From contig CP021222.1 of assembly GCA_003999685.1 (NCBI GenBank), positions 1 to 64,000 of the forward strand: a DNA stretch of 64,000 nt. Direction: 5' to 3'. The position numbers and the translations under genes were made by a program. The notes under the pieces were generated by a model, which was not told the origin of the DNA, did no database searches, and worked only from the letters and a program-made list of their open reading frames with translations. Below are positions 1 through 26,406 of the stretch, piece by piece. The DNA comes from Taiwanofungus camphoratus (Eukaryota; Basidiomycota; Agaricomycetes; Polyporales; Taiwanofungaceae). Every line of letters starts with the position of its first letter. Within the stretch, counting starts at the first letter, position 1.

Positions 1-118
1 CCTAACCTAACCTAACCTAACCTAACCTAACCTAACCTAACCTAACCTAACCTAACCTAACCTAAACCTAACCTAACCTAACCTAACCTAACCTAACCTA
101 ACCTAACCTAACCTAACC
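1..118. repeat. Chromosome-terminal telomeric array (CCTAA)n
   Basis: About 23 tandem copies of the 5-base unit CCTAA (TTAGG on the other strand), nearly pure, with one CCTAAA variant near base 61. The C-rich strand reads 5' to 3' from the window start, which is the orientation of a left chromosome end, so base 1 is probably at or very near the physical terminus. The unit is one base shorter than the TTAGGG usual in filamentous fungi. It joins directly to a 5'-truncated retroelement at about 119. Confidence 0.93.
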
Positions 119-705
119 CGCCCCGCATGGCTCGGACAGGGTGCTCACGGGGATTCCCAGGTTTGTGCCATGACATGATGCTTCCTCAGTGGTCCACGCT
201 GCCCTTAGTAGACGCCCGGAAAGCGGCCCGGTCACATGATCGGTGCGGTACCGGCTAATTTGTTCCTATCTATACCCGGCCCGGATTAACCTCCGGCCCG
301 GGCTTCCTATCTGTTATCTCGGATCTTGAGCCTAGGCTTGCGATCCGGATTCTAATCTTAATCAGATGACTCTGACATCTGATCAGTAATGGTGTCTAGG
401 CGAATCTAGACAATGATGATTGCTCATCGCTGACTGATTAGGATAGGAGGGAGAGACGTGATTCGCTCCCACCCGCAACCCTTTGCCCTGGTTCGGTCAA
501 ATTGACTTAGTCACCGGCCCCCTGGCCATGACTCAACCATAAGCGTGACTTTGGTTGAACTTGGTTATAAGCGACGCTAGTGCTCTGATGAGACTTAGTC
601 GAAATTAGCCGTCCGATAGCGATATCGGGCTAATTAGTACTAGCTTCCTCTAAGCCTCCCCCCTGCCCTGCACTCGCAGCCCTTGTAGTGTTGATACATA
701 GACCT
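119..705 (+). mobile_element. Insertion 1: 5'-truncated type A pLTR, telomeric Penelope-like element
   Basis: This is the outermost insertion. It starts inside the type A pLTR (compare 6718 onward in the full copy) immediately after the terminal telomere repeats and runs to the normal pLTR 3' end just before CCTAA repeats resume at 706. It has no RT ORF. It contains a complete hammerhead ribozyme near its 3' end. The 5' truncation directly capped by telomere repeat fits a cDNA that was incompletely copied onto the chromosome end and then extended by telomerase. Confidence 0.85.
576..644 (+). ncRNA. Hammerhead ribozyme, type A pLTR copy 1
   Basis: The core has CTGATGA at 586-592 and GAAA at 601-604. 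Stem I is 9 bp (GCTAGTGCT with AGTACTAGC, one G-U). Stem II is 3 bp (GAC/GTC, loop TTA). Stem III is ATTAGC/GCTAAT plus CCGATA/TATCGG closed by a GCGA tetraloop. The predicted cleavage is after T635. The ends are open at stem I (type I topology). Hammerheads in pLTRs are an established property of Penelope-like elements. Confidence 0.93.
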
Positions 706-835
706 CCTAACCTAACCTAACCTAACCTAACCTAACCTAACCTAACCTAACCAGACCTAACCTAACCCTAACCTAACCTAACCTAACCTAACCTAACCTA
801 ACCTAACGCTAAATCCTAACCTAACCTAACCTAAC
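706..835. repeat. Internal telomere-repeat tract with element-borne variants
   Basis: CCTAA repeats. At 752-760 the motif CCAGACC appears, which is the 3' end of the element's terminal hairpin (compare 5429-5436). It is followed by the CCCTAA and GCTAAATCC variants seen again at 5437-5514. The distal part is therefore telomerase-type repeat and the proximal part is copied element sequence, marking the 5' end of insertion 2. Confidence 0.8.
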
Positions 836-1686
836 TGAAGGCGCTATCGCGCCTTCTCCATTTGGTAGTTTTGGGAAATAAGACGCTCGTCACGTGACTT
901 GCCCGAAAGGGCCGGACATGTGATCAGCATCCAGGCACGGACCGGTTGAGCCGCGAGGCTGGACTGGCCTGGGCACTACCTAGTTATGGTCACCAGCGCC
1001 CCTCTGCTGTGTTAGTCCATGATCCGGTGATCTGTGAGGTGTAACATGCTATGGCACGGTGCGGCAACTTGCCGGACGCGGTCCTAGTGAATATCCCGCC
1101 CCCGCCCCGCATGGCTCGGTGAGGGTGTTCCTAGGGATCCTCAGGTTTGTGCCGTGACATGATGCTTCCTCAGTGGTCCACGCTGCCCTTATCTAGGCGC
1201 CCGGAAGTCGGACCGGTCATGTGACTCGGTCGGCACCGGCCCGGATTGTTCTATTCCCACCCTTATCACCCTAACCGATGATAAGGGATCTCTTATCTAT
1301 GAGTCATCTTAAATGACTCCTTATCTTTACATCTGATTATTATCTCTGATCAGGTGGCGGTATTGGTAAAGGCTAGGGCGTTCTAGCCTGCCTTTTGTCG
1401 GCCCGCTGATAAGAGATAAGAGAAATAGCTCTAATGTGATTGGAGCTCACCACTACCTCATGGCCTGGTTGGTCAAATAGAATCAGTCATCGGCCTCCGG
1501 CCGATGACTCAGGGTCAATCATCTGATGACCCTGAACCATCGGTTAAAAGTACGACGAGAGTACTGATGAGCTCCTTAGCGAAACAAGTTGGTATCTGGC
1601 AACAGATACCTTTGTTTACTCTTGTCTTCTCTATTTTTCTCATCTCTTACTACGCTCGCCCGCCTATCGGCGGTCTCGCTCCACCT
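836..1686 (+). repeat. 5' pLTR, type B
   Basis: An 851-bp pseudo-LTR starting TGAAGGCGCTATCGCGCCTT, itself a hairpin, and ending CCACCT just before CCTAACC. It shares with type A the blocks around GTAACATGCTA and the CATGATGCTTCCTCAGTGG box, but differs elsewhere and carries a different hammerhead. It is duplicated at 5515-6365 and 22538-23388. Confidence 0.85.
1554..1626 (+). ncRNA. Hammerhead ribozyme, type B pLTR copy 1
   Basis: CTGATGA is at 1564-1570. Stem II is GCT/AGC with loop CCTT, followed by GAAA at 1581-1584. Stem III is ACAA/TTGT plus an inner 8-bp GGTATCTG/CAGATACC helix closed by GCAA. Stem I is 10 bp (GACGAGAGTA with TACTCTTGTC, one G-U). Predicted cleavage is after T1616. 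The sequence differs from type A in every helix, yet the catalytic core is the same. Confidence 0.92.
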
Positions 1687-1841
1687 CCTAACCTAACCAA
1701 CACCGCCGCCAAGCTGTCTCTCTACATCCGCCACCGCAAGCCCCTTACCTGGTGCACGACTGTCGGTATCTTCTGCGACGACTGCAATCGATTCTACAAG
1801 CCCAAGTCTGAGTCGATCTACTATCGTCCCCCGCCGTTCGC

Positions 1842-4800
1842 ATGGCTCCACCTTCCACACCCCGTTCTTCTTCCGTCGGTCCCGGGTCTGCCTCACTTAG
1901 GTCTGCAATTGCCCGGAATCTTGCCCCCGCGAGCTTATCGTACGCTATCGGGGCGGCATCGCTTGAGACTGTTGCCGATGAGTTCCGAGCCATTTTTCAC
2001 GCAGAGACCATTGACCAAGTCTTCTCAGCTATACCTCTCGTCTATCGAGAGGTGCTCCGTCCGGTGCTGGTTAGCGTTGCGGAAGCGAAGGAACGTTCTG
2101 TTTCTTTGCAGAAGCAATTGGGTGACCTTGAGTCGCACAAAGCTAACGGTTCGCTCCCCCACCAGTTACAGGGGCTCAGCGAACCCGTCTTCCAGAGCTC
2201 AAAACTCTGGCTCGAGACGTCGCCGGCGGAGCCCGCAGCTCTGATAACCGAGTTCCAATCCTTCCGTCGGAAGGCTCTTGACTTGGCCATCGCCCAAAAG
2301 CGAGCAGAGCTCGCGTTCTTTGATCGCGCATTAGACCCGACAGCAATGTTGGAGAAAATGCGGACAGTGGTTGACGAACAGTGGGCGCGCATTAGCCAGT
2401 CTAGTCGCGTTCCTGTTTGGAGGGAAACTATCGACGGCGGTCAACGCTTAGATACGTGGACCAATGACCCTGTCCTCGAGTCTGAGTACAAGCGATTCGT
2501 CGCTGTGCTCCCACGCTTTGCCTTCCGGGTAGTTAATATCCGTGAATCACAACTGGCACAAGCCGCGGCTCGAGCGCAAGCAAAGTCTGCCGTCAAGGCT
2601 GCAGCGGAGGTCGAGATGGGTGACGCCACCGAGAACCCTGCAGCTTTGAAAAAGCTGATCGATGATGCGGTTGATCGTCGTTTCAAAGGCGAAGGCAGCT
2701 CAAAGAACGCGGTAAGTTTTGTACATGGTTCTGTTCCAAAAAGCTTACCAGGCGCCGCTCTATCACGTATTTTAGGGAGCAAAGGCAAAGGCGCCAAAAC
2801 GATCGGTGCGCATGAGTACGGGAGGACGCCCTCCCAAACCTCCGCAGCGCAAGGCCAAGCAGCAGCAGGCCGCTTCCTCTGCGAAGAAGCAGAAGAAGAC
2901 CAAAGATCGGAAAGGCAAAGGGAGAGCGAAATAATTCGGTCAGTTATTCGCTCGCGACTCCGTTTCTCCCAGCCGTCGTCTTATCCAGACAGTATCCTAA
3001 TGTTACCCTTGCCAGTTGCAGCTCGCACCCTCCTTTATTTCGCTCCGGTTGCTTTAGTCGAAGCGGCGAGGTTCAGAAGCTGGGTGCATTGTGGCGAGGA
3101 CGTTATACTACCGCCGGACATTAGCATACACATATCTTGCGGTTTGAAATATATGTTGTACTCCCCCCCGAGCGGGGAACTCATTCAAACAGCGTTCGAT
3201 GATTTCTGTGAACGAATACGCTGGCGAGTGTATTTTAAAGTTAAACAGATTCAACTCGAACGGCAAGGTATAAGCCAACCACCTTATGATCCAGACTACG
3301 ACCTTAGGGCTAAGCGGGACTCGTCCGCCCCTAGGGCCACACAATATATCGAAAACGGTCTTAAACGCGGGCAAACATACGTCACTGATTACATACGTAG
3401 TGTCGTACCCGGTTTGAAAGCTAGAAGCCACCCTAATCGGCTTGTAGACCTGGACCGTGTTCGCCTCTGGTTGAACGAGCATAACTACCTCGTTCTCCAA
3501 ACGGACAAGAATCTCGGTGCGGCAGTAGTCACAAGGGAATGGTTCATTAATGGTTGCATGAATCTTCTGTCAAATACGGCTGACTATCAGGAAATTAATC
3601 CCGGTCAGCGACAGATGTATTTAGAAAAAGTTACAAAGCGGGTTAAGGAGTTAAGCGATTGGGTCGAAGGGGCTTTGCCTAACGATCAGACACTCCAATT
3701 AGCCAAATTCCTCCGGTCAAAATGTCCCGAGAGCGAGTTAGAGGAACCAAAGGTGCCTATCTTTTACGGGATCCCAAAAATCCATAAATCCCCAGTAAAG
3801 ATGCGACCTATTGTTCCATGTCACTCATGCGCTCAAGGGCCCGCGGCTAAAGTTGTATCTAAACTGTTGAAACCTATTATCGAGGCTGAGTCCTTTATTA
3901 TACACGGATCAAAACATCTTGCGATCCAGTTAGCAAAGGTCAAAACGTTAAAATGGAAAAAGTATTGGTTAGTGGCTGGCGACGTTGTCGCTTTCTACCC
4001 AAATGTACCACTCAGAGATTGTGTTGGCATTGTGTCCAAATTGTACACAAGACATCCTCTGGGTAGTCAGTCTATGGACCAGCCCCAGTTTTATAATGCG
4101 CTGTTTATCAGGTGCATGCAAACAGCCAATTACGATTTAATAGTCGACTTCAACGGTCGTACTTACTTTCAAAAACGAGGACTAGCTATGGGTGTGGCGT
4201 GTTCGCCTGACTTAGCTAATCTCTATGGATGCCATTTTGAAAATCAAGTATGGCCCGGTGGACAGGTTACTCCACCGTTCCTATATTATGGTCGATACAT
4301 TGATGATGTATTCGCCATAGTTGAAGCAGGTAGTGCGGCAGAAGCTTTAGAAGCCTGCCAAAGCCGTATATCTTATGATGGCTGCACTATAACATGGGAA
4401 GTGTCTGAATGGGCGACGCCATTCCTTGACATGCTTATTTATATAGACCCCGTTTCTAACCGGGTGGAACATAAGCCATATCGGAAAGCACTTAACCATC
4501 ATGAACGAATTCCATGGGTATCTCACCACCCGAAGGATGTGAAAAAAGGCACATTCATTGGGGAGATGAGCCGTTTAGCTACGCTAAGTTCTAAGTTGGA
4601 ACACTACCTAGATGCCCTTCATGGGCTTGTCGACCTGTATGTCGGCCGTGGCTATCCCCCTGCTCTGGTTACTTCTTGGCTTGATTCGCATAAAGCGGTA
4701 CGCTGGAAAGAACGTCTTGGAAAACCAAAATCTTCGACCGAAGATGCAGACCAAGTTGAGGGCGTACTTGCGATTAAGTCGAAGTTCAACCCCTCATGGG

Positions 4801-5345
4801 ATCAGTTCGATGTTCATGAATTAATGACACGTGTTACGGAATCGTGGGTGAAGGATTTATCTTTCTTTAAGTCCTTCTTTTCGGCGAGTTGGGAAAACTC
4901 GGCCGCTCCGATCTTTGAGTATTCGTCTGGGGGTCCTAAGGATGCGACCCTATCCAGCACAGTTCAGACCACGCTTGAGGAGTGGTGGGATCCCGCCCGA
5001 GTAGCCCAGCGCAAGCTGTCGCGCGAAACGGCGGCTGCGGAAGCAGCAGCAGAACTCGCCGCCGCTGAAGCCAGGCGGTCCGATCAAATCTCGAAACCGG
5101 TGGCAGTTGTCCATGACAACCGCGCGGACGAGGGCTGGGTTTGGACTGGGCGGTACCTGAAGAAACCCAACGGATTCATCGAAGCGGAGAAGGTCCCTGA
5201 CCTTTCCCAACTCGGGTTCTTAGACAAGCGCTGGCTTGTGTCGCGTAAAAGGGAAACCAATTTCGCTGACTTAGCAAGCAAATGGCGCAGAAGTGTAATT
5301 AATGCCCAAAGTACAGATGATGTACTATTGGAAATGGACATATAA
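1842..5345 (+). CDS. Reverse transcriptase of Penelope-like element, type B, 1167 aa
   Basis: An intact single-exon RT of the Penelope/telomerase-related class. Residues 1-540 are an N-terminal extension with a likely helical region. LQTDKNLGAAVV (about 549) is the DKG-like motif of these elements. PKIHK...KMRPI lies at about 645-655. RT motif A is GDVVAFYPNV (about 712, catalytic D), motif B is KRGLAMGVACSPDLAN (about 776), and motif C is YGRYIDDVFAIV (about 815, catalytic DD). FLDMLIYID follows at about 860. The C-terminal 250 residues contain no GIY-YIG endonuclease, which fits an element that primes on exposed telomere ends. ATG 1842 is chosen because the related copy starts at the equivalent ATG (7492). 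All catalytic residues are present, so the protein could be active. An overlapping open frame at the 5' end (1504-2244) is treated as a shadow. Confidence 0.93.
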   Translation: MAPPSTPRSSSVGPGSASLRSAIARNLAPASLSYAIGAASLETVADEFRAIFHAETIDQVFSAIPLVYREVLRPVLVSVAEAKERSVSLQKQLGDLESHKANGSLPHQLQGLSEPVFQSSKLWLETSPAEPAALITEFQSFRRKALDLAIAQKRAELAFFDRALDPTAMLEKMRTVVDEQWARISQSSRVPVWRETIDGGQRLDTWTNDPVLESEYKRFVAVLPRFAFRVVNIRESQLAQAAARAQAKSAVKAAAEVEMGDATENPAALKKLIDDAVDRRFKGEGSSKNAVSFVHGSVPKSLPGAALSRILGSKGKGAKTIGAHEYGRTPSQTSAAQGQAAAGRFLCEEAEEDQRSERQRESEIIRSVIRSRLRFSQPSSYPDSILMLPLPVAARTLLYFAPVALVEAARFRSWVHCGEDVILPPDISIHISCGLKYMLYSPPSGELIQTAFDDFCERIRWRVYFKVKQIQLERQGISQPPYDPDYDLRAKRDSSAPRATQYIENGLKRGQTYVTDYIRSVVPGLKARSHPNRLVDLDRVRLWLNEHNYLVLQTDKNLGAAVVTREWFINGCMNLLSNTADYQEINPGQRQMYLEKVTKRVKELSDWVEGALPNDQTLQLAKFLRSKCPESELEEPKVPIFYGIPKIHKSPVKMRPIVPCHSCAQGPAAKVVSKLLKPIIEAESFIIHGSKHLAIQLAKVKTLKWKKYWLVAGDVVAFYPNVPLRDCVGIVSKLYTRHPLGSQSMDQPQFYNALFIRCMQTANYDLIVDFNGRTYFQKRGLAMGVACSPDLANLYGCHFENQVWPGGQVTPPFLYYGRYIDDVFAIVEAGSAAEALEACQSRISYDGCTITWEVSEWATPFLDMLIYIDPVSNRVEHKPYRKALNHHERIPWVSHHPKDVKKGTFIGEMSRLATLSSKLEHYLDALHGLVDLYVGRGYPPALVTSWLDSHKAVRWKERLGKPKSSTEDADQVEGVLAIKSKFNPSWDQFDVHELMTRVTESWVKDLSFFKSFFSASWENSAAPIFEYSSGGPKDATLSSTVQTTLEEWWDPARVAQRKLSRETAAAEAAAELAAAEARRSDQISKPVAVVHDNRADEGWVWTGRYLKKPNGFIEAEKVPDLSQLGFLDKRWLVSRKRETNFADLASKWRRSVINAQSTDDVLLEMDI

Positions 5346-5410
5346 ATCGGTTGATTCGATTTGTTTAGCTTAAGGTTATTGGTGTAACTACCTTTTGCGT
5401 TTATTCGCAC

Positions 5411-5442
5411 TTAGGGTTGTCTGTTCAAACCAGACCTAACCT
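5411..5442 (+). other. Conserved 3'-UTR hairpin at ORF-module end
   Basis: TTAGGGTTGTCTG-TTCAAAC-CAGACCTAACC folds as GTCTG/CAGAC flanked by GGTT/AACC, pairing TTAGG with CCTAA sequence. It marks the end of the RT module and the start of the telomere-like tract. It is conserved at 11084-11114, 15522-15552, 20123-20153 and 22439-22469. A role as RT recognition or priming structure is inference. Confidence 0.6.
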
Positions 5443-5514
5443 AACCCTAACCTAACCTAACCTAACCTAACCTAACCTAACCTAACGCTAAATCCTAACC
5501 TAACCTAACCTAAC
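5433..5514. repeat. Element-borne telomere-like tract, type B
   Basis: CCTAA repeats with a fixed pattern of variants (CCCTAA early, GCTAAATCC late). The same pattern occurs in the tract before 836 and at 22460-22537, so this tract is copied with the element and not freshly added by telomerase. Confidence 0.8.
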
Positions 5515-6365
5515 TGAAGGCGCTATCGCGCCTTCTCCATTTGGTAGTTTTGGGAAATAAGACGCTCGTCACGTGACTTGCCCGAAAGGGCCGGACATGT
5601 GATCAGCATCCAGGCACGGACCGGTTGAGCCGCGAGGCTGGACTGGCCTGGGCACTACCTAGTTATGGTCACCAGCGCCCCTCTGCTGTGTTAGTCCATG
5701 ATCCGGTGATCTGTGAGGTGTAACATGCTATGGCACGGTGCGGCAACTTGCCGGACGCGGTCCTAGTGAATATCCCGCCCCCGCCCCGCATGGCTCGGTG
5801 AGGGTGTTCCTAGGGATCCTCAGGTTTGTGCCGTGACATGATGCTTCCTCAGTGGTCCACGCTGCCCTTATCTAGGCGCCCGGAAGTCGGACCGGTCATG
5901 TGACTCGGTCGGCACCGGCCCGGATTGTTCTATTCCCACCCTTATCACCCTAACCGATGATAAGGGATCTCTTATCTATGAGTCATCTTAAATGACTCCT
6001 TATCTTTACATCTGATTATTATCTCTGATCAGGTGGCGGTATTGGTAAAGGCTAGGGCGTTCTAGCCTGCCTTTTGTCGGCCCGCTGATAAGAGATAAGA
6101 GAAATAGCTCTAATGTGATTGGAGCTCACCACTACCTCATGGCCTGGTTGGTCAAATAGAATCAGTCATCGGCCTCCGGCCGATGACTCAGGGTCAATCA
6201 TCTGATGACCCTGAACCATCGGTTAAAAGTACGACGAGAGTACTGATGAGCTCCTTAGCGAAACAAGTTGGTATCTGGCAACAGATACCTTTGTTTACTC
6301 TTGTCTTCTCTATTTTTCTCATCTCTTACTACGCTCGCCCGCCTATCGGCGGTCTCGCTCCACCT
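5515..6365 (+). repeat. 3' pLTR, type B
   Basis: The second pLTR of insertion 2, in direct orientation and without visible differences from 836-1686. It ends CACCT and is followed by CCTAA repeats at 6366, which fits an RNA 3' end able to anneal to a TTAGG overhang. Confidence 0.85.
6233..6305 (+). ncRNA. Hammerhead ribozyme, type B pLTR copy 2
   Basis: Identical to the ribozyme at 1554-1626: CTGATGA, GCT-CCTT-AGC stem II, GAAA, a long GCAA-capped stem III and a 10-bp stem I. Predicted cleavage is after 6295. Confidence 0.92.
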
Positions 6366-6444
6366 CCTAACCTAACCTAACCGAACCTAACCTAACCTAA
6401 CCTAACCTAACCTAACGCTAATCCTAACCTAACCTAACCTAACC
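6366..6444. repeat. Telomere-like tract between insertions 2 and 3
   Basis: CCTAA repeats containing the type A variants CCGAACC and CGCTAATCC. The proximal part therefore belongs to insertion 3, which begins inside its own inter-module tract. Confidence 0.75.
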
Positions 6445-7295
6445 GCCGGACTTTCCCAGTCCTGCGCTTAGGGTTGCCTTAAAATAGATAGGCGCCTTAC
6501 GTGTCACATGATATGTTCGGCACTTAGTACGGACCGGCCCTTCATTGCGGCCCGGTGCGCGCCGTTCCCGCATGCTAGCGGAGCGCGCGATAACTACTAT
6601 GGTCCCCAGCGCCCCTCTGCTGTGTTAGTCCATGATCTGGTGATCTGTGGGTTGTAACATGCTAGAGCACGGTGCGGCAACTTGCTGGACGCGGTCCTGA
6701 TGAGTATCCTTCCCCCGCCCCGCATGGCTCGGACAGGGTGCTCCCGGGGATTCCCAGGTTTGTGCCATGACATGATGCTTCCTCAGTGGTCCACGCTGCC
6801 CTTAGTAGACGCCCGGAATGCGGCCCGGTCACATGATCGGCGCGGCACCGGCTATGTTGTTCCTATCTATGTCCGGCCCGGATTAACCTTCGGCCCGGAC
6901 TTCCTATCTCTTATCTCAGACCTTGAGCCTAGGCTTGAGGTCTGGATTCTAATCTTAATCAGATGACTCTGACATCTGATCAGTAATGGTGTCTAGGCGA
7001 ATCTAGACAATGATGATTGCTTATCGCTGATTGATTAGGATAGGAGGGAGAGACGTGATTCGCTCCCACCCGCAACCCTTTGCCCTGGTAAGGTCAAACT
7101 GACTTAGTCACCGGCCCCCGGGCCCTGACTCAACCATAAGCGTGACTTTGGTTGAACTTGGTTATAAGCGACGCTAGTGCTCTGATGAGACTTAGTCGAA
7201 ATTAGCCGTCCGATAGCGATATCGGGCTAATTAGTACTAGCTTCCATTAAGTCTTCTCAACGCTCGCAACTCCTTCGTCGTTGCTCGCTCCACCT
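6445..7295 (+). repeat. 5' pLTR, type A
   Basis: An 851-bp pseudo-LTR starting GCCGGACTTTCCCAGTCC and ending GCTCCACCT before CCTAACC. Other complete copies are at 11208-12058, 15646-16503, 20247-21108, 21183-22043, 23567-24427 and 25239-26105. A 94-codon open frame (6682-6966) recurs in most copies but shows mainly amino-acid-changing differences. Confidence 0.85.
7173..7241 (+). ncRNA. Hammerhead ribozyme, type A pLTR copy 2
   Basis: Same sequence and fold as 576-644: CTGATGA, GAC-TTA-GTC, GAAA, stem III with GCGA tetraloop and 9-bp stem I. Confidence 0.92.
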
Positions 7296-7491
7296 CCTAA
7301 CCTAACCAATCAGCGACTTCCAAACTGTCTCTCATCCCGCATCTCGGTTTTCGACGGCGCTACAGGGTCCTGCCTCCTACTCCACCGCCTGTCAACCCTA
7401 TCCAGGAATACCGTTTGCTTGCCCTTTGCTTCGCTAGGTGTCCCATCTCATTCCACTTCTTACCCGCTGAGACACCCTGCCCCTGCTTAAC

Positions 7492-11016: not shown

Positions 11017-11109
11017 AACTGTTAAGTCAGTTTGATTAGCATCGGTTACATCAGGTGTAACGTTATCTTAGTGTGTTGGTGTATTAGGGTTGTCTGTTCA
11101 AACCAGACC

Positions 11110-12058: not shown

Positions 12059-12107
12059 CCTAACCTAACCTAACCTAACCTAACCTAACCTAACCTAACC
12101 TAACCTA
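12059..12107. repeat. Pure CCTAA tract (healed junction)
   Basis: About ten uninterrupted CCTAA units without the element-borne variants. They join RT codon 60 with shared bases AAC. I read this as telomerase-added repeat on a truncated cDNA. Confidence 0.78.
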
Positions 12108-15455: not shown

Positions 15456-15645
15456 ACTGTTAAGTCAGTTTGATTAGCATCGGTTACATCAGGTGTAACG
15501 TTATCTTAGTGTGTTGGTGTATTAGGGTTGTCTGTTCAAACCAGACCTAACCTAACCCTAACCTAACCTAACCTAACCTAACCGAACCTAACCTAACCTA
15601 ACCTAACCTAACCTAACGCTAATCCTAACCTAACCTAACCTAACC

Positions 15646-16503: not shown

Positions 16504-16542
16504 CCTAACCTAACCTAACCTAACCTAACCTAACCTAACCTA
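16504..16542. repeat. Pure CCTAA tract (healed junction)
   Basis: Seven to eight clean CCTAA units joining the RT at codon 5. CCTA is shared between the repeat and the element at the junction. Confidence 0.78.
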
Positions 16543-19500
16543 CCTCGTTCTGGATCCACCCGTTCGTCTTCCGCAGGACCAGGTGGAGCATCACTTCGCG
16601 CCGCTATTGCGCGGAACCTTGCTCCCCCCTCGTTGGCTTATGCCATGGGAGCGACGTCACTTGAGACTATTGCCGATGAGTTCCGCGCCGTCCTTTCAGC
16701 CGAAACATTTGACACAGTGTTATCAGTCGTGCCTCTCGTATACCGGGAGGTACTCCGCCCGGTTTTGGCTAGCATTGCGGAAGCGAAGGAACGCTGCGTT
16801 TCTTTGTCGAAGCAAGTGGGTGAGCTCGAGGCTCATCTTGCCAACGGTTCCCTTCCGCCCCAGTTACAAGGCATGGGGGAACCCGTTTTCCAGTCAGCGA
16901 AAGTTTGGCTGGAAACACACCCGGCGGAACCAGGGGCTCTTGCGGAGAAATTTAAAACGTTTCGCCGCGAAGCACTCGCTTTAGCCATAGCGCAAAAGCG
17001 TGCTGAGCTCACGTTCTTTGAGGGCGCGCTGGACCCTACTACTATGTTGGGGAAGGCGCGCGACGTGGTCGACTCACAATGGGCTGCGATCTCACAAGGA
17101 TCGCGTGTCCCTAAGTGGAGAACTTCTCTCGATGGGAACGTCGAGATTGAAGGTTGGCAGAACGACCCCGTCCTTGAGTCGGAACACAAGCGATTCGTCG
17201 CTGTGCTCCCGCGATTTTGCTTCCGTGTCGTGAATATTCGCGAATCACAGTTAGCACATGCCGCGACTCGAGCCAATGCAAAGAGTGCCCTCAAGGCAGT
17301 AGCGGAGGTAGAAATGAGTGATACCACCGAGAACCCTGCTGCCTTGAAGAAGTTGATTGATGATGCTGTGGATCGTCGGTTGAAAGGTGAGGGCACCTCA
17401 AAGAACGTTAAACAACAGGTCAGTTTTGTACATGGTTCAGTACCTAAAAACTTACCTGGCGCCGCTCTCTCTCGTATTTTAGAAGGGCAAAGGCAAGGCG
17501 CCAAATCGTTCGGCGCGCATGAGCACAGGAGGACGCCCTCCCAAAGCTCCGCAACGCGCGGCAAAGCAAAAGCAGGCCGCTTCATCGAAGAAAGCTTCGA
17601 CGATGAAGAAGAACAAAGGGAAAGGGAAAGGGAGACCGAATTAATACGGTCAGTACTTCGGTCGCGACTCAGATTTTCGCAACCCTCAACTTACCCGGAT
17701 GAATTACTTGATCTACCCACTCCAGTCGGGGCACGCACCCTCCTTTACTTTGCACCGGCCGCTTTAGTCGAAGCACAGAGGTTCCGGACTTGGGTTCATG
17801 TTGGCGACGGAGTTAGTTTACCTGCGGAGATCAGTATTCATATTTCTTGCGGACTTAAGTACATGCTGTACGCTCGCCCTTCAGGCGAGTTAGTTCAAAA
17901 CGCTTATGATGATTTTTGTGAAAGAATTCGGTGGAGAGTTCATTTCGCCTGCAAACAAAAGATTCTTGAGCGGCAAGGAATAAGTCAACCACCATATGAC
18001 CCAGACTACGACTTGAGGTTGAAACGCGACAGCAACGCACCTCAAGCCAGCCAATATATCGAACTTGGTCTTAAACGCGGGCAAACATACGTCACTGAAT
18101 TCATACGCAATGTCGTACCCGGTTTGAAAGCTAGGAGTCGCCCTAATCGACTCGTAGACCTGGACAAAGTTCGCCTCTGGTTGGACGAGCATAACTACCT
18201 CGTCCTCCAAACGGATAAGAACCTCGGCGCTGCTGTAGTCACAAGGGAATGGTTCATCAATGGTTGCAACTTACTTCTGTCAAATACGGCTGACTATCAG
18301 GAAATCAATCCTGGTCAACGGCAGATGTACTTAGAAAAGGTTACTAAACGGGTTAAGGAGTTAAGCGATTGGGTCGAAGGGGCTTTGCCTCATGATCAGA
18401 CACTCCAGTTAGCCAAATTTCTTCGGTCAAAATGTCCCGAGAGCGAGTTGGACGAGCCCAAGGTTCCCATCTTCTATGGTATCCCAAAAATCCATAAGAC
18501 ACCAGTGAAGATGCGGCCTATTGTGCCCTGTCACTCATGCGCTCAAGGCCCCGCGGCTAAAGTAGTATCCAAGTTGTTGAAACCCATCATAGAGGCAGAA
18601 CCCTTTATTATACATGGCAGTAAAGATCTTGCTGGCAAGTTAGCAACGGTTAAAACACTAAAATATAAAAAGTATTGGCTTGTGGCCGGCGACGTTGTCG
18701 CTTTCTACCCCAATGTACCTCTCAGAGAATGCGTAGGCATTGTATCTAAATTGTACATTAGTCATCCATTGGGTAGTCAAACTACGGACCACCCCGAATT
18801 TTATAACGCCTTATTTATTCGGTGTATGCAATCAGCCAATTACGACTTAATAGTTGACTTCAACGGTCACACATTTCTTCAAAAGCGTGGATTAGCTATG
18901 GGAGTGGCATGTTCGCCCGACCTTGCTAATCTATATGGATGCCATTTTGAAAATAAAGTCTGGCCTTCTGGGCAGGTTAGCCCACCCTTTCTTTATTATG
19001 GGCGTTACATCGATGATGTATTCGCTATCGTTGAAGCAGGTAGTGCAGCTGAGGCACTTGAACTCTGTACCAGTCGTATTTCCTACACTGGTTGTACTAT
19101 AACATGGGAAGTGTCGGAATGGGCAACGCCATTCCTGGACATGCTTATTTATATTGACCCCGTAACCAACCGGGTGGAACATAAGCCGTATCGGAAAGCA
19201 CTTAACCATCATGAAAGAATACCATGGATATCTCACCATCCAAAGGACGTTAAAAAAGGCACGTTCATTGGGGAGATGAGCCGTTTAGCTACGCTAAGTT
19301 CTAAGTTGGAACATTACTTAGATGCCCTTAAAGGGCTTGTCGATTTGTACGTCGGCCGTGGCTATCCCCCTGCTCTGGTTGTTGCATGGCTTGACGCACA
19401 TAAAGCAGTACGCTGGGCGAAACGTTTGGACATTAAACAAACTTCGACCGAAGCGGCGGACGCGAATGATGGCGTACTTGTACTTAAGTCGCAATTTAAC

Positions 19501-20055
19501 CCTTCATGGGATTCTTTCGATATTCATGAATTAATGACACGAGTCACCGGATCTTGGGTGGAGTCTTTAAGTTTCTTTAAAAACTTCTTTTCGGCGAGTT
19601 GGGAAAACTCGGCCGCCCCGATTTTCGATTATTCGGCTGGGGGTTCGCGGGATGCGACCCTATCCGGCACAGTTCAGACCACGCTTGAGGAGTGGTGGGA
19701 TCCCGCCCGAGTAGCCCAGCGAAAGCTGTCGCGCGAAACGGCGGCTGCTTCGGCAGCAGCAGATCGTGCCGCCGCTGAAGCCCGGCGGTCTGATCAAATC
19801 TCTAACCTGGCGGCGGTCGTCCATGACAACCGCGCAGAAGAGGGCTGGGTATGGACTGGGCGGTACCTAAGGAAACCCACCGGATTTATTGAGGCGGAGA
19901 AGGTCGCAGATCTTTCCCAACTCGGATTCTTAGACAAGCGCTGGCTTGTGTCTCGGAAGCGGGAAACCAATTTCGCAGACTTAGCAAGTAAATGGCGCAG
20001 AAGTGTTATTAATGCCCAAAGTGCAGATGATGTACTTTTGGAAATGGATATTTAA
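16543..20055 (+). pseudogene. RT of Penelope-like element lacking the start codon (insertion 5)
   Basis: 1170 sense codons from about codon 5-6 of the type A RT to the stop, with no internal stops or frameshifts. The native ATG and about four following codons have been replaced by telomere repeat. All RT motifs are present, including YGRYIDDVFAIV. It differs from the insertion 3 and 4 copies by scattered substitutions, so it derives from a separate source element. Confidence 0.88.
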
Positions 20056-20246
20056 AACTGTTAAGTCAGTTTGATTAGCATCGGTTACATCAGGTGTAAC
20101 GTTATCTTAGTGTGTTGGTGTATTAGGGTTGTCTGTTCAAACCAGACCTAACCTAACCCTAACCTAACCTAACCTAACCTAACCGAACCTAACCTAACCT
20201 AACCTAACCTAACCTAACGCTAATCCTAACCTAACCTAACCTAACC

Positions 20247-21108
20247 GCCGGACTCTCCCAGTCCTGCGCTTAGGGTTGCCTAAAAATAGATAGGCGCCTT
20301 ACGTGTCACATGATATGTTCGGCACTTAGTACGGACCGGCCCTTCACTGCGGCCCGGTGCGCGCCGTCCCCGCATGCTAGCGGAGCGCGCGTTAACTACT
20401 ATGGTCCCCAGCGCCCCTCTGCTGTGTTAGTCCATGATCTGGTGATCTGTGGGTTGTAACATGCTAGAGCACGGTGCGGCAACTTGCTGGACGCGGTCCT
20501 ATTGAGTATCCTTCCCCCGCCCCGCATGGCTCGGACAGGGTGCTCACGGGGATTCCCAGGTTTGTGCCATGACATGATGCTTCCTCAGTGGTCCACGCTG
20601 CCCTTAGTAGACGCCCGGAAAAGCGGCCCGGTCACATGATCGGTGCGGCACCGGCTATGTTGTTCCTATCTATGTCCGGCCCGAATTAACCTTCGGCCCG
20701 GACTTCCTATCTCTTATCTTGGATCTTGAGCCTAGGCTTAAGGTCTGGATTCTAATCTTAATCAGATGACTCTGACATCTGATCAGTAATGGTGTCTAGG
20801 CGAACCTAGACAATGTCTTTTGCTTGACGCTGACTGATTAGGATAGGAGGGAGAGACGTGATTCGCTCCCACCTGCAACCCTTTGCCCTGGTTCGGTCAA
20901 ACTGACTTAGTCACCGGCCCCCGGGCCATGACTCAACCATAAGCGTGACTTTGGTTGAACTTGGTTATAAGCGACGCTAGTGCTCTGATGAGACTTAGTC
21001 GAAATTAGCCGTCCGATAGCGATAATCGGGCTAATTAGTACTAGCTTCTCCTAAGCCTCTTCCTTTCTTAGCGCACCAACAGCACCTGCGGCGCTGTTGT
21101 CTCTTCCT
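20247..21108 (+). repeat. 3' pLTR, type A (insertion 5)
   Basis: Complete pLTR. A one-base insertion (GGAAAAGCGG near 20620) closes the 94-codon frame seen in other copies, which argues against that frame being under selection. Confidence 0.83.
20976..21045 (+). ncRNA. Hammerhead ribozyme, type A pLTR copy 5
   Basis: As 576-644 but with one extra A in the distal stem III (GATAATCGG). The core and stems I and II are unchanged. Confidence 0.88.
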
Positions 21109-22043
21109 CCTAACCTAACCTAACCTAACCTAACCTAACCTAACCTAACCTAACGCTAATCCTAACCTAACCTAACCTAACCGCCGGACTTATCCAGTCC
21201 TGCGCTTAGGGTTGCCTAAAAATAGATAGGCGCCTTACGTGTCACATGATATGTTCGGCACTTAGTACGGACCGGCCCTTCATTGCGGCCCGGTGCGCAC
21301 CGTCCCCGCATGCTAGCGGAGCGCGCGATAACTACTATGGTCCCTAGCGCCCCTCTGCTGTGTTAGTCCATGATCTGGTGATCTGTGGGTTGTAACATGC
21401 TAGAGCACGGTGCGGCAACTTGCTGGACGCGGTCCTATTGAGTATCCTTCCCCCGCCCCGCATGGCTCGGACAGGGTGTTCACGGGGATTCCCAGGTTTG
21501 TGCCATGACATGATGCTTCCTCAGTGGTCCACGCTACCCTTAGTAGACGCCCGGAAAGCGGCCCGGTCACATGATCGGCGCGGCACCGGCTATGTTGTTC
21601 CTATCTATGTCCGGCCCGGATTAACCTCCGGCCCGGACTTCCTATCTCTTATCTCGGACCTTGAGCCTAGGCTTGCGGTCCGGATTCTAATCTTAATCAG
21701 ATGACTCTGACATCTGATCAGTAATGGTGTCTAGGCGAATCTAGACAATGTTGATTGCTCAGCGCTGACTGATCAGGATAGGAGGGAGAGACGTGATTCG
21801 CTCCCACTTGCAACCCTTTGCCCTGGTACGGTCAAACTGACTTAGTCACCGGCCCCCGGGCCATGACTCAACCATAAGCATGACTTTGGTTGAACTTGGT
21901 TATAAGCGACGCTAGTGCTCTGATGAGACTTAGTCGAAATTAGCCGTCCGATAGCGATATCGGGCTAATTAGTACTAGCTTCCACTAAGCCTCCTTCCTC
22001 CTGCCCTGCACTCGCAGCCCCAGTAGTATTGATACATAGACCT
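21109..22043 (+). mobile_element. Insertion 6: solo type A pLTR with part of its upstream tract
   Basis: CCTAA repeats with the CGCTAATCC variant (21109-21182), followed by a complete pLTR (21183-22043). Because the variant is present, the truncation point lies inside the element's own telomere-like tract. No ORF is present. Confidence 0.83.
21911..21979 (+). ncRNA. Hammerhead ribozyme, type A pLTR copy 6
   Basis: Same core and helices as 576-644. Confidence 0.92.
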
Positions 22044-22083
22044 CCTAACCTAACCTAACCTAACCTAACCTAACCTAACCTAC
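22044..22083. repeat. Pure CCTAA tract (healed junction)
   Basis: About eight clean units abutting a truncated type B RT end. Confidence 0.75.
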
Positions 22084-22085
22084 TC

Positions 22086-22373
22086 GCCGCCGCTGAAGCC
22101 AGGCGGTCCGATCAAATCTCGAAACCGGTGGCAGTTGTCCATGACAACCGCGCGGACGAGGGCTGGGTTTGGACTGGGCGGTACCTGAAGAAACCCAACG
22201 GATTCATCGAAGCGGAGAAGGTCCCTGACCTTTCCCAACTCGGATTCTTAGACAAGCGCTGGCTTGTGTCGCGTAAAAGGGAAACCAATTTCGCTGACTT
22301 AGCAAGTAAGTGGCGCAGAAGTGTTATCAATGCCCAAAGTACAGATGATGTACTTTTGGAAATGGACATATAA
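22086..22373 (+). pseudogene. RT fragment, last 95 residues (insertion 7)
   Basis: In-frame C-terminal tail of the type B RT, nearly the same as the end of the 1842-5345 protein (it shares the PVAVVHDNRADEGWVWTGRY stretch and the same final LLEMDI). The N-terminal 1070 residues and all catalytic motifs are missing. Confidence 0.88.
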
Positions 22374-22537
22374 ATCGGTTGATTCGATTTGTTTAGCTTA
22401 AGGTTAATGGTGTAACTACCTTTTGCGTTTATTCGCACTTAGGGTTGTCTGTTCAAACCAGACCTAACCTAACCCTAACCTAACCTAACCTAACCTAACC
22501 TAACCTAACGCTAAATCCTAACCTAACCTAACCTAAC

Positions 22538-23388
22538 TGAAGGTGCTATCGCACCTTCTCCATCTGGTAGTTTCGGGAAATAAGACGCTCGTCACGTGAC
22601 CTACCCGAAAGGGCCGGACATGTGACCAGCATCCAGGCACGGACCGGTTGAGCCGTAAGGCTGGACTGGCCTGGGCACAACCTAGTTATGGTCACCAGCG
22701 CCCCTCTGCTGTGTTAGTCCATGATCCGGTGATCTGTGAGGTGTAACATGCTATGGCACGGTGCGGCAACTTGCCGGACGCGGTCCTAGTGAATATCCCG
22801 CCCCCGCCCCGCATGGCTCGGTGAGGGTGTTCCTAGGGATCCTCAGGTTTGTGCCGTGACATGATGCTTCCTCAGTGGTCCACGCTGCCCTTATCTAGGC
22901 GCCCGGAAGTCGGACCGGTCATGTGACTCGGTCGGCACCGGCCCGGATTGTTCTATTCCCACCCTGTCATCCTAACCGATGATAAGGGATCTCTTATCTA
23001 TGAGTCATATCAAATGACTCCTTATCTTTACATCTGATTGTTATCTCTGATCAGGTGGCGGTATTGGTAAAAAGGCTAGGGCGTTCTAGTCTGCCTTTTG
23101 TCGGCCCGCTGATAAGAGATAAGAGAAATAGCTCTGATGTGATTGGAGCTCACCACTACCTCATGGACTGGTTTGTCAAACTGAATCAGTCATCGGCCTC
23201 CGGCCGATGACTCAGGGTCGATCAGCTGATGACCCTGAACCATCGGTTAAAAGTACGACGAGAGTACTGATGAGCTCTTAGCGAAACAAGTAGGTATCTA
23301 GCGATAGATACCATTGTTTACTCTTGTCTTCTCTATTTTTCTCATCTCTTACTACGCTCGCCCGCCTATCGGCGGTCTCGCTCCACCT
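22538..23388 (+). repeat. 3' pLTR, type B (insertion 7)
   Basis: Complete type B pLTR starting TGAAGGTGCTATCGCACC. The hairpin change GCGC to GTGC is matched by GCGC to GCAC on the other arm, so the 5'-end hairpin is preserved. Confidence 0.84.
23257..23328 (+). ncRNA. Hammerhead ribozyme, type B pLTR copy 3
   Basis: Stem II is GCT/AGC with loop CTT. The stem III helix is GGTATCTA/TAGATACC capped by GCGA. Compared with 1554-1626 the closing pair changed from G-C to A-T on both strands and the loop from GCAA to GCGA, which is direct covariation for this fold. Confidence 0.93.
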
Positions 23389-23436
23389 CCTAACCTAACC
23401 TAACCCTAACCTAACCCTAACCTAACCTAACCTAAC
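23389..23436. repeat. CCTAA/CCCTAA tract
   Basis: Telomere-type repeat with two CCCTAA variants, leading into a very short type B fragment. Confidence 0.7.
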
Positions 23437-23527
23437 CTAGCGATAGATACCATTGTTTACTCTTGTCTTCTCTATTTTTCTCATCTCTTCCTACGCTCGC
23501 CCGCCTATCGGCGGTCTCGCTCCACCT
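23437..23527 (+). mobile_element. Insertion 8: 91-bp 3' end of a type B pLTR
   Basis: Only the last 91 bp of the type B pLTR, starting in the stem III loop of the hammerhead. The ribozyme is therefore cut in half and non-functional. It is flanked on both sides by CCTAA repeats. Confidence 0.85.
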
Positions 23528-24427
23528 CCTAACCTAACGCTAATCCTAACCTAACCTAACCTAACCGCCGGACTTTCCCAGTCCTGCGCTTAGGGTTGCC
23601 TAAAAAATAGATAGGCGCCTTACGTGTCACATGATATGTTCGGCACTTAGTACGGACCGGCCCTTCATTGCGGCCCGGTGCGCGCCGTTCCCGCATGCTA
23701 GCGGAGCGCGCGTTAACTACTATGGTCCCCAGTGCCCCTCTGCTGTGTTAGTCCATGATCTGGTGATCTGTGGGTTGTAACATGCTAGAGCACGGTGCGG
23801 CAACTTGCTGGACGCGGTCCTGATGAGTATCCTTCCCCCGCCCCGCATGGCTCGGACAGGGTGCTCCCGGGGATTCCCAGGTTTGTGCCATGACATGATG
23901 CTTCCTCAGTGGTCCACACTGCCCTTAGTAGACGCCCGGAAAGCGGCCCGGTCACATGATCGGCGCGGCACCGGCTATGTCGTTCCTATCTATGTCCGGC
24001 CCGGACTAACCTCCGGCCCGGACTTCCTATCTCTTATCTAGTCTTCTGGGGCCTAGGCTCCGGGTCTGGATTCTAATCTTAATCAGATGACTCTGACATC
24101 TGATCAGTAATGGTGTCTAGGCGAACCTAGACAATGTCTTTTGCTTGACGCTGACTGATTAGGATAGGAGGGAGAGACGTGATTCGCTCCCAACTGCAAC
24201 CCTTTGCCCTGGTAAGGTCAAACTGACTTAGTCACCGGCCCCCGGGTCATGACTCAACCATAAGCGTGACTTATGTTGAACTTGGTTATAAGCGACGCTA
24301 GTGCTCTGATGAGACTTAGTCGAAATTAGCCGTCCGATAGCGATATTGGGCTAATTAGTACTAGCTTCCTCTAAGCCTCCCCTCCTGCCCTGCACTCGCA
24401 GCCCTTGTAGTGTTGATACATAGACCT
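23528..24427 (+). mobile_element. Insertion 9: solo type A pLTR with upstream tract
   Basis: CCTAACGCTAATCC variant tract, then a complete type A pLTR (23567-24427). The segment TAGTCTTCTGGGGCC near 24038 differs from other copies and introduces a stop in the 94-codon frame. Confidence 0.84.
24297..24365 (+). ncRNA. Hammerhead ribozyme, type A pLTR copy 7
   Basis: As 576-644 with a TATTGG arm in stem III, which still pairs with CCGATA through a G-U. Confidence 0.91.
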
Positions 24428-24440
24428 CCTAACCTAACCT

Positions 24441-25226
24441 AACACTTAGTACGGACCGACCCTTCACTGCGGCCCGGTGCGCGCCGTCCCCGCATGCTAG
24501 CGGAGCGCGCGTTAACTACTATGGTCCCTAGCGCCCCTCTGCTGTGTTAGTCCATGATCTGGTGATCTGTGGGTTGTAACATGCTAGAGCACGGTGCGGC
24601 AACTTGCTGGACGCGGTCCTATTGAGTATCCTTCCCCCGCCCCGCATGGCTCGGATAGGGTGCTCACGGGGATTCCCAGGTTTGTGCCATGACATGATGC
24701 TTCCTCAGTGGTCCACGCTACCCTTAGTAGACGCCCGGAAAGCGGCCCGGTCACATGATCGGCGCGGCACCGGCTATGTTGTTCCTATCTATGTCCGGCC
24801 CGGACTAACCTTCGGCCCGGACTTCCTATCTCTTATCCCGGATCTTGAGCCTAGGCTTACGGTCCGGATTCTAATCTTAATCAGATGACTCTGACATCTG
24901 ATCAGTAATGGTGTCTAGGCGAATCTAGACAATGATGATTGCTCATCGCTGACTGATTAGGATAGGAGGGAGAGACGTGATTCGCTCCCACCTGCAACCC
25001 TTTGCCCTGGTACGGTCAAACTGACTTAGTCACCGGCCCCCGGGTCATGACTCAACCATAAGCGTGACTTATGTTGAACTTGGTTATAAGCGACGCTAGT
25101 GCTCTGATGAGACTTAGTCGAAATTAGCCGTCCGATAGCGATATCGGGCTAATTAGTACTAGCTTCCACTAAGCCTCCCTTTCCTGCCCTGCACTCGCAG
25201 CCCTTGTAGTGTTGATACATAAACCT
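24441..25226 (+). mobile_element. Insertion 10: type A pLTR missing its first ~90 bp
   Basis: Starts at ACTTAGTACGG, an internal pLTR position, right after CCTAAC, with CAC shared at the join. It runs to a normal 3' end (AAACCT, a variant of AGACCT). Confidence 0.83.
25095..25163 (+). ncRNA. Hammerhead ribozyme, type A pLTR copy 8
   Basis: Same core and helices as 576-644. Confidence 0.92.
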
Positions 25227-26105
25227 CCTAACCTAACCGCCGGACTTACCCAGTCCTGCGCTTAGGGTTGCCTTAATATAGATAGGCGCCTTACGTGTCA
25301 CATGATATGTTCGGCACTTAGTACGGACCGGCCCTTCATTGCGGCCCGGTGCGCGCCGTTCCCGCATGCTAGCGGAGCGCGCGATAACTACTATGGTCCC
25401 TAGCGCCCCTCTGCTGTGTTAGTCCATGATCTGGTGATCTGTGGGTTGTAACATGCTAGAGCACGGTGCGGCAACTTGCTGGACGCGGTCCTATTGAATA
25501 TCCTTCCCCCGCCCCGCATGGCTCGGATAGGGTGTTCACGGGGATTCCCAGGTTTGTGCCATGACATGATGCTTCCTCAGTGGTCCACGCTACCCTTAGT
25601 AGACGCCCGGAAAGCGGCCCGGTCACATGATCGGTGCGGCACCGGCTATGTTGTTCCTATCTATGTCCGGCCCGGACTAACCTCCGGCCCGGACTTCCTA
25701 TCTCTTATCTCGGATCTTGAGCCTAGGCTTGCGGTCCGGATTCTAATCTTAATCAGATGACTCTGACATCTGATCAGTAATGGTGTCTAGGCGAATCTAG
25801 ACAATGTTGATTCCTCAGCGCTGATTGATTAGGATAGGAGCGAGAGACGTGATTCGCTCGCACTTGCAACCCTTTGCCCTGGTTTAGTCAAACTGACTTA
25901 GTCATCGGCCCCCGGGCCATGACTCAACCATAAGCATGACTTTGGTTGAACTCGGTTAAAATCGACAGCTAGTGCTCTGATGAGACTTAGTCGAAATTAG
26001 CTGCCCGCCCCTCCATAGGCGAGCTAATTAGTACTAGCTTCCTCTAAGTCCTCCTTTCAAGCCCGTATCGCACTCGCAGCACCTGCGGCGCTGCTCGCTC
26101 CACCT
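25227..26105 (+). mobile_element. Insertion 11: solo type A pLTR, divergent 3' end
   Basis: Complete pLTR (25239-26105) after only about two CCTAA units. The terminal 150 bp, including the hammerhead, differ from the other stacked copies and resemble the internal relic at 28832-29500, indicating an older lineage. Confidence 0.83.
25968..26038 (+). ncRNA. Hammerhead ribozyme, divergent type A (copy 9)
   Basis: Core CTGATGA and GAAA are kept and stem II is unchanged. Stem III is rebuilt as ATTAGCT/AGCTAAT plus an inner GCC/GGC pairing with a larger loop. Pairing is preserved although the loop sequence is different. Confidence 0.9.
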
Positions 26106-26125
26106 CCTAACCTAACCCTAACCTA

Positions 26126-26353
26126 ACCTGCAACCCTTTGCCCTGGTACGGTCAAACTGACTTAGTCACCGGCCCCCGGGCCATGACTCAACCATAAGCG
26201 TGACTTATGTTGAACTTGGTTATAAGCGACGCTAGTGCTCTGATGAGACTTAGTCGAAATTAGCCATCCGATAGCAATATCGGGCTAATTAGTACTAGCT
26301 TCCATTAAGTCTTCTCAACGCTCGCAACTCCTTCGTCGTTGCTCGCTCCACCT
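26126..26353 (+). mobile_element. Insertion 12: last ~230 bp of a type A pLTR
   Basis: Begins at CTGCAACCCTTTGCC after CCTAA repeats, with ACCT shared at the junction, and ends CCACCT before CCTAACC. It contains a full hammerhead. Confidence 0.83.
26231..26299 (+). ncRNA. Hammerhead ribozyme, type A pLTR copy 10
   Basis: As 576-644, but the stem III tetraloop is GCAA in place of GCGA, both GNRA, and the CCGATA/TATCGG helix is intact. Confidence 0.92.
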
Positions 26354-26406
26354 CCTAACCTAACCTTGTCTCCTCCTCCTAACCTAACCTAACCTAACCT
26401 AACCTA
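26354..26406. repeat. Innermost CCTAA tract with a ~13-bp element remnant
   Basis: Two CCTAA units, then TTGTCTCCTCCT (about 26365-26377), which resembles the last bases of the pLTR end at 21097-21108, then about five more CCTAA units. It looks like a minimal truncated insertion (number 13). Below this the telomeric stack ends. Confidence 0.65.

Follow-up and report, generated by a model that had tools for sequence, protein, structure and literature searches.

What has built the left end of contig C3 of the Taiwanofungus camphoratus genome (CP021222.1), where the distal 26 kb of the 64,000 nucleotides analysed here (positions 1 to 64,000, hereafter the window) is made up of repeated units interspersed with CCTAA repeats? 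The answer that we favour, with a probability of about 0.85, is that an endonuclease-less Penelope-like element (PLE), a retrotransposon present in two families, A and B, has inserted again and again at the chromosome terminus and so built up a stack. A first reading made from the letters of the sequence only (the sequence-only reading) had proposed a telomere-attached Penelope lacking its endonuclease and added at the chromosome terminus. This is supported by a reverse transcriptase (RT) domain, by the lack of a GIY-YIG match, by the position of all listed copies near chromosome ends in a single orientation, by 5′ truncation onto CCTAA and by the younger age of family A copies further out. 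The genome comprises 33,194,378 bp in 15 contigs, of which 14 are taken as nuclear chromosomes with 28 nuclear ends, while contig 15 (150,773 bp) looks mitochondrial, with no CCTAA cap and with AT-rich ends. Ends are denoted by contig number and L or R for the left or right contig end (e.g. C10L, C9R). A telomerase RT gene is indicated by an RNA-binding domain (PF12009, E-value 6.1e-14) at C6:759,844.

The stack in the window

The 3′ end of a unit carries the motif CTCCTAACCTAAC, which is present at 15 places in the window; two of these are junctions between pseudo-long terminal repeat (pLTR) and body within the two full-length elements, so that 13 unit 3′ ends remain (704, 6364, 12057, 16502, 21107, 22042, 23387, 23526, 24426, 25225, 26104, 26352 and 26376). 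All 13 units are on the + strand with the 3′ end pointing inward, and they fill positions 1-26,406 as had been described. The matching pLTR pairs ascribed to the two full-length elements are indeed identical (854/854 and 859/859 compared bases). The segments are as follows.

1..116, +, CCTAA cap at the chromosome terminus
117..707, +, unit 1: family B single pLTR, 5′-truncated at pLTR-B 271
751..6367, +, unit 2: full-length family A element
6373..12060, +, unit 3: family B element, full length, with 71 of the 99 bp of embedded array in its left pLTR
12107..16505, +, unit 4: family B, 5′-truncated at body 367 (about codon 60 of the open reading frame, ORF)
16537..21110, +, unit 5: family B, 5′-truncated at body 201 (about ORF codon 5)
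21110..22045, +, unit 6: family B single pLTR, start inside the embedded array
22081..23390, +, unit 7: family A, 5′-truncated at body 3365 (RT tail)
23438..23529, +, unit 8: pLTR A, final ~91 bp
23536..24429, +, unit 9: family B single pLTR, start inside the embedded array
24441..25228, +, unit 10: family B pLTR, 5′-truncated at 78
25235..26107, +, unit 11: family B single pLTR, start at the array edge
26123..26355, +, unit 12: family B pLTR, 5′-truncated at 625
26360..26406, +, unit 13: final ~13 bp of a pLTR tail, then CCTAA; innermost boundary, adjoining unique subtelomere

Ahead of the left pLTR of unit 2 lie all 80 bp of the embedded array (756-835) together with CCAGA from the end of the body, and the ending of unit 13 matches one pLTR tail type that was also seen by eye at C3R. 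The segment map reproduces the truncation points listed in the sequence-only reading, with the exception of three units (at 21,182; 23,566; 25,238) that had been called truncated inside the pLTR. These are complete single pLTRs that start in, or at the edge of, the telomeric array carried by the element, and part of the CCTAA between units is therefore element-encoded. Apart from the pLTR pairs, no exact block duplication was found in the window stack (words with at least three CCTAA being skipped); the longest exact repeat is the family A pLTR pair, and the other long ones are shorter stretches common to copies. End-to-end comparisons covered 266,115 bp of end sequence, in which the whole window was included and many ends were represented in part; 12 of the 13 window junctions, used as probes, have no exact copy in the compared sequence of other ends, and two that were searched genome-wide occur once each.

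Distribution over the chromosome ends

Each of the 28 nuclear ends terminates in sequence of family A or B whose 3′ end points inward, and the first match is no more than 177 bp from the contig end; the outermost 0.7-1.25 kb was compared across 27 of these ends, and the 28th (C11R) was examined separately. CCTAA-type repeats start 26 of the 28 ends, C4L and C5R being uncapped. Contig C5 is exactly 2,820,000 bp long and its uncapped right end, which lies inside a pLTR, looks cut. Every scored RT match (39/39, from 58 candidates at first look) has the expected orientation and is no more than 35 kb from a contig end, as is the case for all pLTR-B matches (88/88), all A-type hammerhead cores (62/62) and the 100 listed among 133 B-type cores in all (100/100), while reversed-pattern controls gave no matches. 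Units scattered through internal regions had been named in advance as a finding that would speak against a terminal origin; they were looked for genome-wide, and there are none among the matches listed, these counts being lower bounds from which diverged internal relics could escape. With the two families at all 28 ends, the stack is not special to this end.

Anatomy of the element

The element is laid out as pLTR, body and pLTR, with a repeat unit of ~4.7 kb and one long ORF, and the proteins of the two families are ~82 % identical. A pLTR is composed of a telomeric array, a core of ~800 bp, a hammerhead-like motif at the 3′ edge of the core, and a tail of ~50-65 bp that is of several sequence types and ends in CTCC-TAACC. 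The embedded array, which sits between the body and the pLTR core, is 99 bp long in mapped family B copies (80 in C5L) and 80 bp in family A (75 in one), and the two reference copies share its irregular beginning (CCTAACCTAACCCTAACC) and its end (GCTAA(A)TCC...).

1554..1626, +, hammerhead-like motif of left pLTR A, limits by eye (second copy ~6233-6305)
1842..5345, +, ORF1-RT fusion ORF of family A, 1167 aa
5435..5514, +, embedded telomeric array of family A, 80 bp
7173..7241, +, hammerhead-like motif of left pLTR B, limits by eye (second copy ~11936-12004)
7492..11016, +, ORF1-RT fusion ORF of family B, 1174 aa
11108..11206, +, embedded telomeric array of family B, 99 bp

An RT domain (RVT_1, PF00078) was matched with E-values of 1.3e-6 and 9e-5, both scores being below the curated cut-off. 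No Pfam match to GIY-YIG was found in the C-terminal 311 aa at E-values up to 10, or in the whole protein at values up to 1. Motifs that we take to be of PLE type (PKIHK, GLAMGV and YIDDV) were recognized by eye. The sub-threshold RT scores weigh against the assignment, as do the reliance of the PLE placement on these motifs and the failure of the AlphaFold model of the RT part (pLDDT 31.5). For the N-terminal part the model was weak and largely helical (pLDDT 61.5), a search of the PDB returned one chance match by sequence (E-value 0.98) and none by profile, and no relatives were found in viral contigs. Of the 39 scored RT matches 38 are free of internal stops, and the ratio of non-synonymous to synonymous substitutions (dN/dS) between families A and B is 0.16.

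The motif in the pLTR is hammerhead-like, a candidate of the ribozyme type on the strength of its sequence. At gathering scores Rfam has no matches in the window; a relaxed search of 20,000-26,400 gave RAGATH-1-hammerhead with 24.9 bits (E-value 0.8) versus a gathering score of 56.3, and the C9R locus (L018) gave the same family with 27.2 bits (E-value 0.053). Eight hammerhead-like sequences were aligned, having been chosen by CTGATGA and GAAA, so that those letters are constant by selection; of the 100 occurrences in the CTGATGA/GAAA list, the one at 38,283 falls beyond the stack and is due to chance. Although the stems on either side do not have the same sequence in A and B, they pair in both, as judged by eye and by folding, and z-scores relative to shuffled sequences are −3.4 (B), −4.1 (A) and −2.7 (a third type). 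The minimum-energy fold of A has all three stems and that of B has stems I and II with the core paired alternatively, while the third type folds without a proper stem II.

The 5′ ends of the units

Where copies begin was tabulated for 102 units, from which the inner relic of the window had already been left out; 97 remained without cut block edges, 95 after dropping two 'bodystart' units, 92 after removing the duplicated C10L/C9R rows and a C5L relic, and 91 after removing C10L:80, which has a truncation junction in common with C9R:150. The embedded array holds the 5′ ends of 50 of these 91 de-duplicated copies (52/95 before de-duplication). It makes up 3.0 % of the traversed template by exact matching, or 4.2 % if the whole array is credited to each copy, and the density of 5′ ends is accordingly 9.0 or 6.4 per kb in the array versus 0.23 elsewhere. 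Both single pLTRs (16) and complete elements (17) start there. Three of the 50 array starts, which weaken the preference somewhat, have no exact array match and possess a complete pLTR core only. The 43 other junctions were reduced to 40 by omission of two with no upstream telomeric run and one duplicate; at least two bases are shared with the running CCTAA phase in 16 of the 40 (15 % expected), and at least four are in phase in 8 of the 40, where 0.6-0.8 would be expected (chance 1.6-1.9 %). The array starts and this microhomology fit telomerase capture of telomere-like cDNA ends.

The alternative that survives best is that the array 5′ ends arose by inward erosion of chromosome ends followed by healing by telomerase, rather than by stopping of the RT or capture of cDNA. 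Erosion to the array and healing could give the same distribution of 5′ ends and the same junctions, telomerase is present, and healing of 3′ ends agrees with the surplus of microhomology at the remaining junctions. Nothing decisive stands on the other side, for the array starts of the 16 single pLTRs and 17 complete elements fit either model, and we consider erosion plausible while still favouring an origin of these ends during insertion.

The template

The left and right pLTRs of an element are mostly identical: 17 of 26 compared pairs are without mismatch and 22 have at most one, some of the 26 belonging to a duplicated block at C10L. Two insertions are longer than one unit. The lap overlap is identical at 416/416 positions in C9R:1896-7930 (pLTR pair 855/855) and at 281/281 in C14R:146-6107 (pLTR pair 872/872). 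A third candidate for such an insertion, C10L:80, was rejected, its overlap matching the body of another element (687/687) better than its own (686/687).

One template that would produce such copies is an RNA circle, cut by the hammerhead ribozyme and re-ligated, around which the RT runs for more than one lap. The two longer-than-unit insertions and the likeness of the pLTRs agree with it, and so does the lack of any start at the predicted hammerhead cut site among the 23 units whose body is complete, unlike what would be expected for linear RNA processed by the ribozyme. However, a read-through transcript of a tandem locus, as PMC11167929 proposes for an Anolis PLE, accounts equally for the same data. 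Recombination can mimic the lap pattern, as C10L:80 illustrates; the C9R lap overlap is matched without difference at C10L:10690 as well, and ribozyme activity of the motif is only putative. Moreover, a 65-bp copy at C9R:7949 does start at the predicted cut site, as would one made from linear cut RNA, possibly by chance. The circle is for us possible, and we lean against it.

Order in time and recombination between ends

Family A copies that start less than 1 kb from the end have a mean identity of 99.6 % to the window copy (n=13, the window copy included), while deeper copies have a mean of 97.0 % (n=18; Mann-Whitney p 5.7e-5, Spearman −0.58). The outermost family A copies are thus younger than the deeper ones, in support of outward growth of the stacks, and to this extent the chronological record seen in the sequence-only reading is borne out. 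A pure clock it is not, because ends exchange blocks. Judged from spacings, blocks of PLEs are duplicated in tandem at C10L (16,021 bp, within 1-34 kb) and C9R (7,388 bp), the shared junction of C9R:150 and C10L:80 has been mentioned, and the pLTRs of a pair are of mixed type at C4L:1059 (37 mismatches) and at C10L:12116 (6 mismatches and 2 gaps), the latter pair lying at one boundary of the duplicated C10L block.

Several of these observations tell against a history of terminal insertions only. The two mixed pairs mean that not every 'full-length element' derives from one template. A boundary of one type, an A tail joined to 71 bp of B array, is found at both C3L and C10L, and the window junction at 23,526 (a short 48-base probe) is also present at C6L, so that not every junction is surely independent.

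If such exchange were the principal process, by break-induced replication or unequal exchange, the elements would be passive subtelomeric repeats; the tandem duplications, mixed pairs and shared junction are what this predicts. It does not, however, explain why 12 of the 13 window junctions lack an exact copy in the compared sequence, nor why near-identical family A copies are outermost on many ends with differing 5′ starts. The absence of stops from 38 of 39 scored RT matches and the low dN/dS argue for elements that are not passive, and none of 71 complete units ends in the body without a pLTR, the expected reciprocal product. We therefore regard recombination as quite improbable as the main source of the stacks and retain terminal insertion, with recombination reshaping what insertion has built. 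That the stacks are an artefact of assembly is highly improbable: the round length of C5 with its uncapped end inside a pLTR, and the uncapped C4L, might suggest it, but 26 of the 28 ends reach CCTAA repeats with differing outermost units, 12 of the 13 window junctions are not at the other compared ends, and the window has no block repeat.

A candidate intron and an overlap of two reading frames

Within the fusion ORF of each family lies a candidate intron of 64 nt that has GT...AG ends and a CTTAC branch-like site and is in frame with the ORF.

2712..2775, +, 64-nt candidate intron of family A (GTAAGT...TTTTAG); spliced product 342 aa with basic tail, stop at 2932
2776..2931, +, dual-coding overlap of the tail of the spliced protein and the linker of the RT fusion
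8383..8446, +, 64-nt candidate intron of family B; spliced product 349 aa, stop at 8603

Removal of the 64 nt shifts the frame and yields predicted proteins of 342 and 349 aa with a basic tail, STGGRPPK...KGKGRxx, which is rich in lysine and which we take to be AT-hook-like; the STGG of this tail also gives it, by eye, a histone-H3-like look. The GT-AG at constant spacing and a tail of 52-53 residues are kept in all 23 distinct ORFs of more than 1100 aa in the end sequence compared. Over the 156 nt of overlap, dS is 0.18 and dN 0.37 when read in the fusion frame, versus dS 0.70 and dN 0.26 in the spliced frame. Changes between A and B at fusion positions 1/2/3 number 21/9/10 in the overlap versus 97/66/248 in the RT part (chi-square p 3.5e-5), and position 3 receives 25 % of the changes in the overlap, compared with 60 % for the RT part and 59 % for exon 1. 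Both reading frames look used because this codon-position constraint is reversed in the overlap. Inside the intron the changes are distributed 2/1/7, as expected if the intron is also translated. The candidate intron would then switch between a protein of ~345 residues and the RT fusion. On the other side of the balance, the open alternative frame is not significant alone, since 59 % of 20,000 synonymous recodings keep both families open, and the dual-coding signal is carried by two families only. PMC3846280 places on record a spliceosomal intron in a Penelope ORF and intron retention by PLEs; a limited check of literature listings showed no title on an intron-retention switch in a PLE.

A model for growth of the ends

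The following steps would account for these results. The end of the element RNA, CCUAACC, would pair with the TTAGG-strand 3′ overhang of the chromosome end and prime reverse transcription, a step that we infer from the orientation of the copies and their constant CTCC-TAACC 3′ end. The cDNA would extend 5′-ward and could stop anywhere, though mostly in its own 80- or 99-bp array, which would leave a ready telomere seed; the distribution of 5′ ends is as observed above, and the manner of stopping is proposed. Telomerase, of which the TERT domain is present, might then add CCTAA, preferring 3′ ends that are already repeat-like, as the excess microhomology suggests. The next copy would land on the new end, so that units stack with the youngest outermost, in keeping with the age gradient observed for family A. 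One frame would give two proteins, a spliced one of ~342-350 aa with a lysine-rich tail and, from unspliced RNA, the RT fusion; the dual constraint is seen in the sequences and the splicing is predicted from them. Since the copies still contain the intron, this unspliced RNA would have to serve as template for transposition as well. Later recombination between ends would duplicate and mix blocks, as has occurred at other ends.

We think it unlikely, if well short of implausible, that the element works jointly in all these respects as a self-capping telomere module, with its own array as landing and stopping site, a choice by intron retention and an RNA circle made by the hammerhead. If it did, the genome of the element would be kept unspliced in a retrovirus-like way, with intron retention deciding whether the RT fusion or a basic nucleic-acid-binding protein is made, and the stacks on 28 ends would be a second system of telomere extension beside telomerase, the embedded seeds of which heal eroded ends. 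As nearly all ends are readable to the cap, ~90 insertions can be compared side by side for age, stop point and capping. The primer and template of an endonuclease-less PLE, the purpose of the pLTR hammerhead, and whether a telomeric retrotransposon helps to maintain ends while telomerase is present all become testable, and the dual-coding intron, if confirmed in RNA, would indicate how a PLE makes two products while its template retains the intron.

Relation to known telomeric elements

Endonuclease-less telomeric PLEs are already known as a phenomenon; Coprina is a fungal endonuclease-deficient telomeric PLE, and the founding papers of the field date from 2007 (PNAS) and 2017 (MBE, Molecular Biology and Evolution). 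The window elements share with Coprina and with Athena of bdelloid rotifers the absence of a detected endonuclease domain, confinement to ends with the 3′ end inward, and 5′ truncation followed by telomeric repeats, the features that PMC3846280 gives for endonuclease-deficient PLEs; telomeric repeats embedded in Athena are mentioned in PMC10088271, and PLEs near Agaricus telomeres in PMC7473861. They appear to differ from Athena and Coprina in comprising two families on 28 ends, in the 5-base CCTAA repeat, in the 80/99-bp telomeric array inside the pLTR, and in the candidate in-frame intron switch. Like Terminons, for which PMC6431247 describes hammerhead-plus-telomeric 3′ ends and head-to-tail arrays, they have a (here putative) hammerhead adjoining a short telomeric 3′ stretch and 5′-truncated head-to-tail copies at ends. 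They lack the giant size (up to 40 kb) and accessory ORFs of Terminons, the repeat unit being a compact ~4.7 kb with no accessory ORFs seen, and their hammerhead-like motif is ~50-65 bp upstream of the telomeric end with a variable tail between.

As in canonical Penelope, there are pLTRs in direct, tandem or partial-tandem arrangement and a candidate hammerhead open at stem I (PMC7761336 and PMC11167929). Stem III is, however, long here, whereas PMC7761336 describes PLE hammerheads as minimal, without helix III or tertiary loop contacts, and with a role not known; canonical Penelope also differs in its GIY-YIG, to which the window elements have no match. Retrotransposons at or in telomeres include MoTeR of rice blast, SART/TRAS of insects and HeT-A/TART/TAHRE of Drosophila (PMC10088271 and PMC5537684), but these are of the LINE (long interspersed nuclear element) type and not PLEs, and Drosophila is an exception as regards telomerase, whereas this genome has a TERT domain. 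The self-carried telomeric array, candidate intron switch and hammerhead-like motif, whose stems differ between the families and still pair, are an anatomy that looks new.

Other features

Further inward than the stack, the window contains an old pLTR-B copy:

28833..29446, +, pLTR-B relic, 83.7 %, with no CCTAA array at its 3′ end

This relic has a hammerhead core and ends in CTCCTCCTAATC, and it may be the trace of an earlier chromosome end or of a deletion that came afterwards. On contig C9 a 1175-bp insert interrupts the PLE pLTR tail at 1,730,952-1,732,126 (− strand) and 1,723,564-1,724,738 (− strand). Within it, and in the sense direction, is a group I intron (Rfam RF00028, 57.7 bits against a gathering score of 50, E-value 1.1e-13); the insert has two matches in the genome at E-values of 0.001 or less, both of them the tandem copies. 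Group I introns are preceded by T and end in G, and the limits of the insert can be placed by eye after T and so as to end in G; possibly the intron was reverse-spliced into element RNA and then copied onto the telomere. The subtelomere of the window contains tandem repeats of 309 bp (4.6 copies, 27,023-28,456) and 102 bp (3.2 copies, 29,672-29,997). Between 35,028 and 41,779 there are ORFs with weak matches to ZNFX1 and an RZ-type zinc finger, both below curated cut-offs, which are perhaps one NFX1-like helicase gene split by introns. The C-terminal domain of the lariat debranching enzyme DBR1 is encoded at 61,905-62,876 on the − strand (E-value 2.4e-26).

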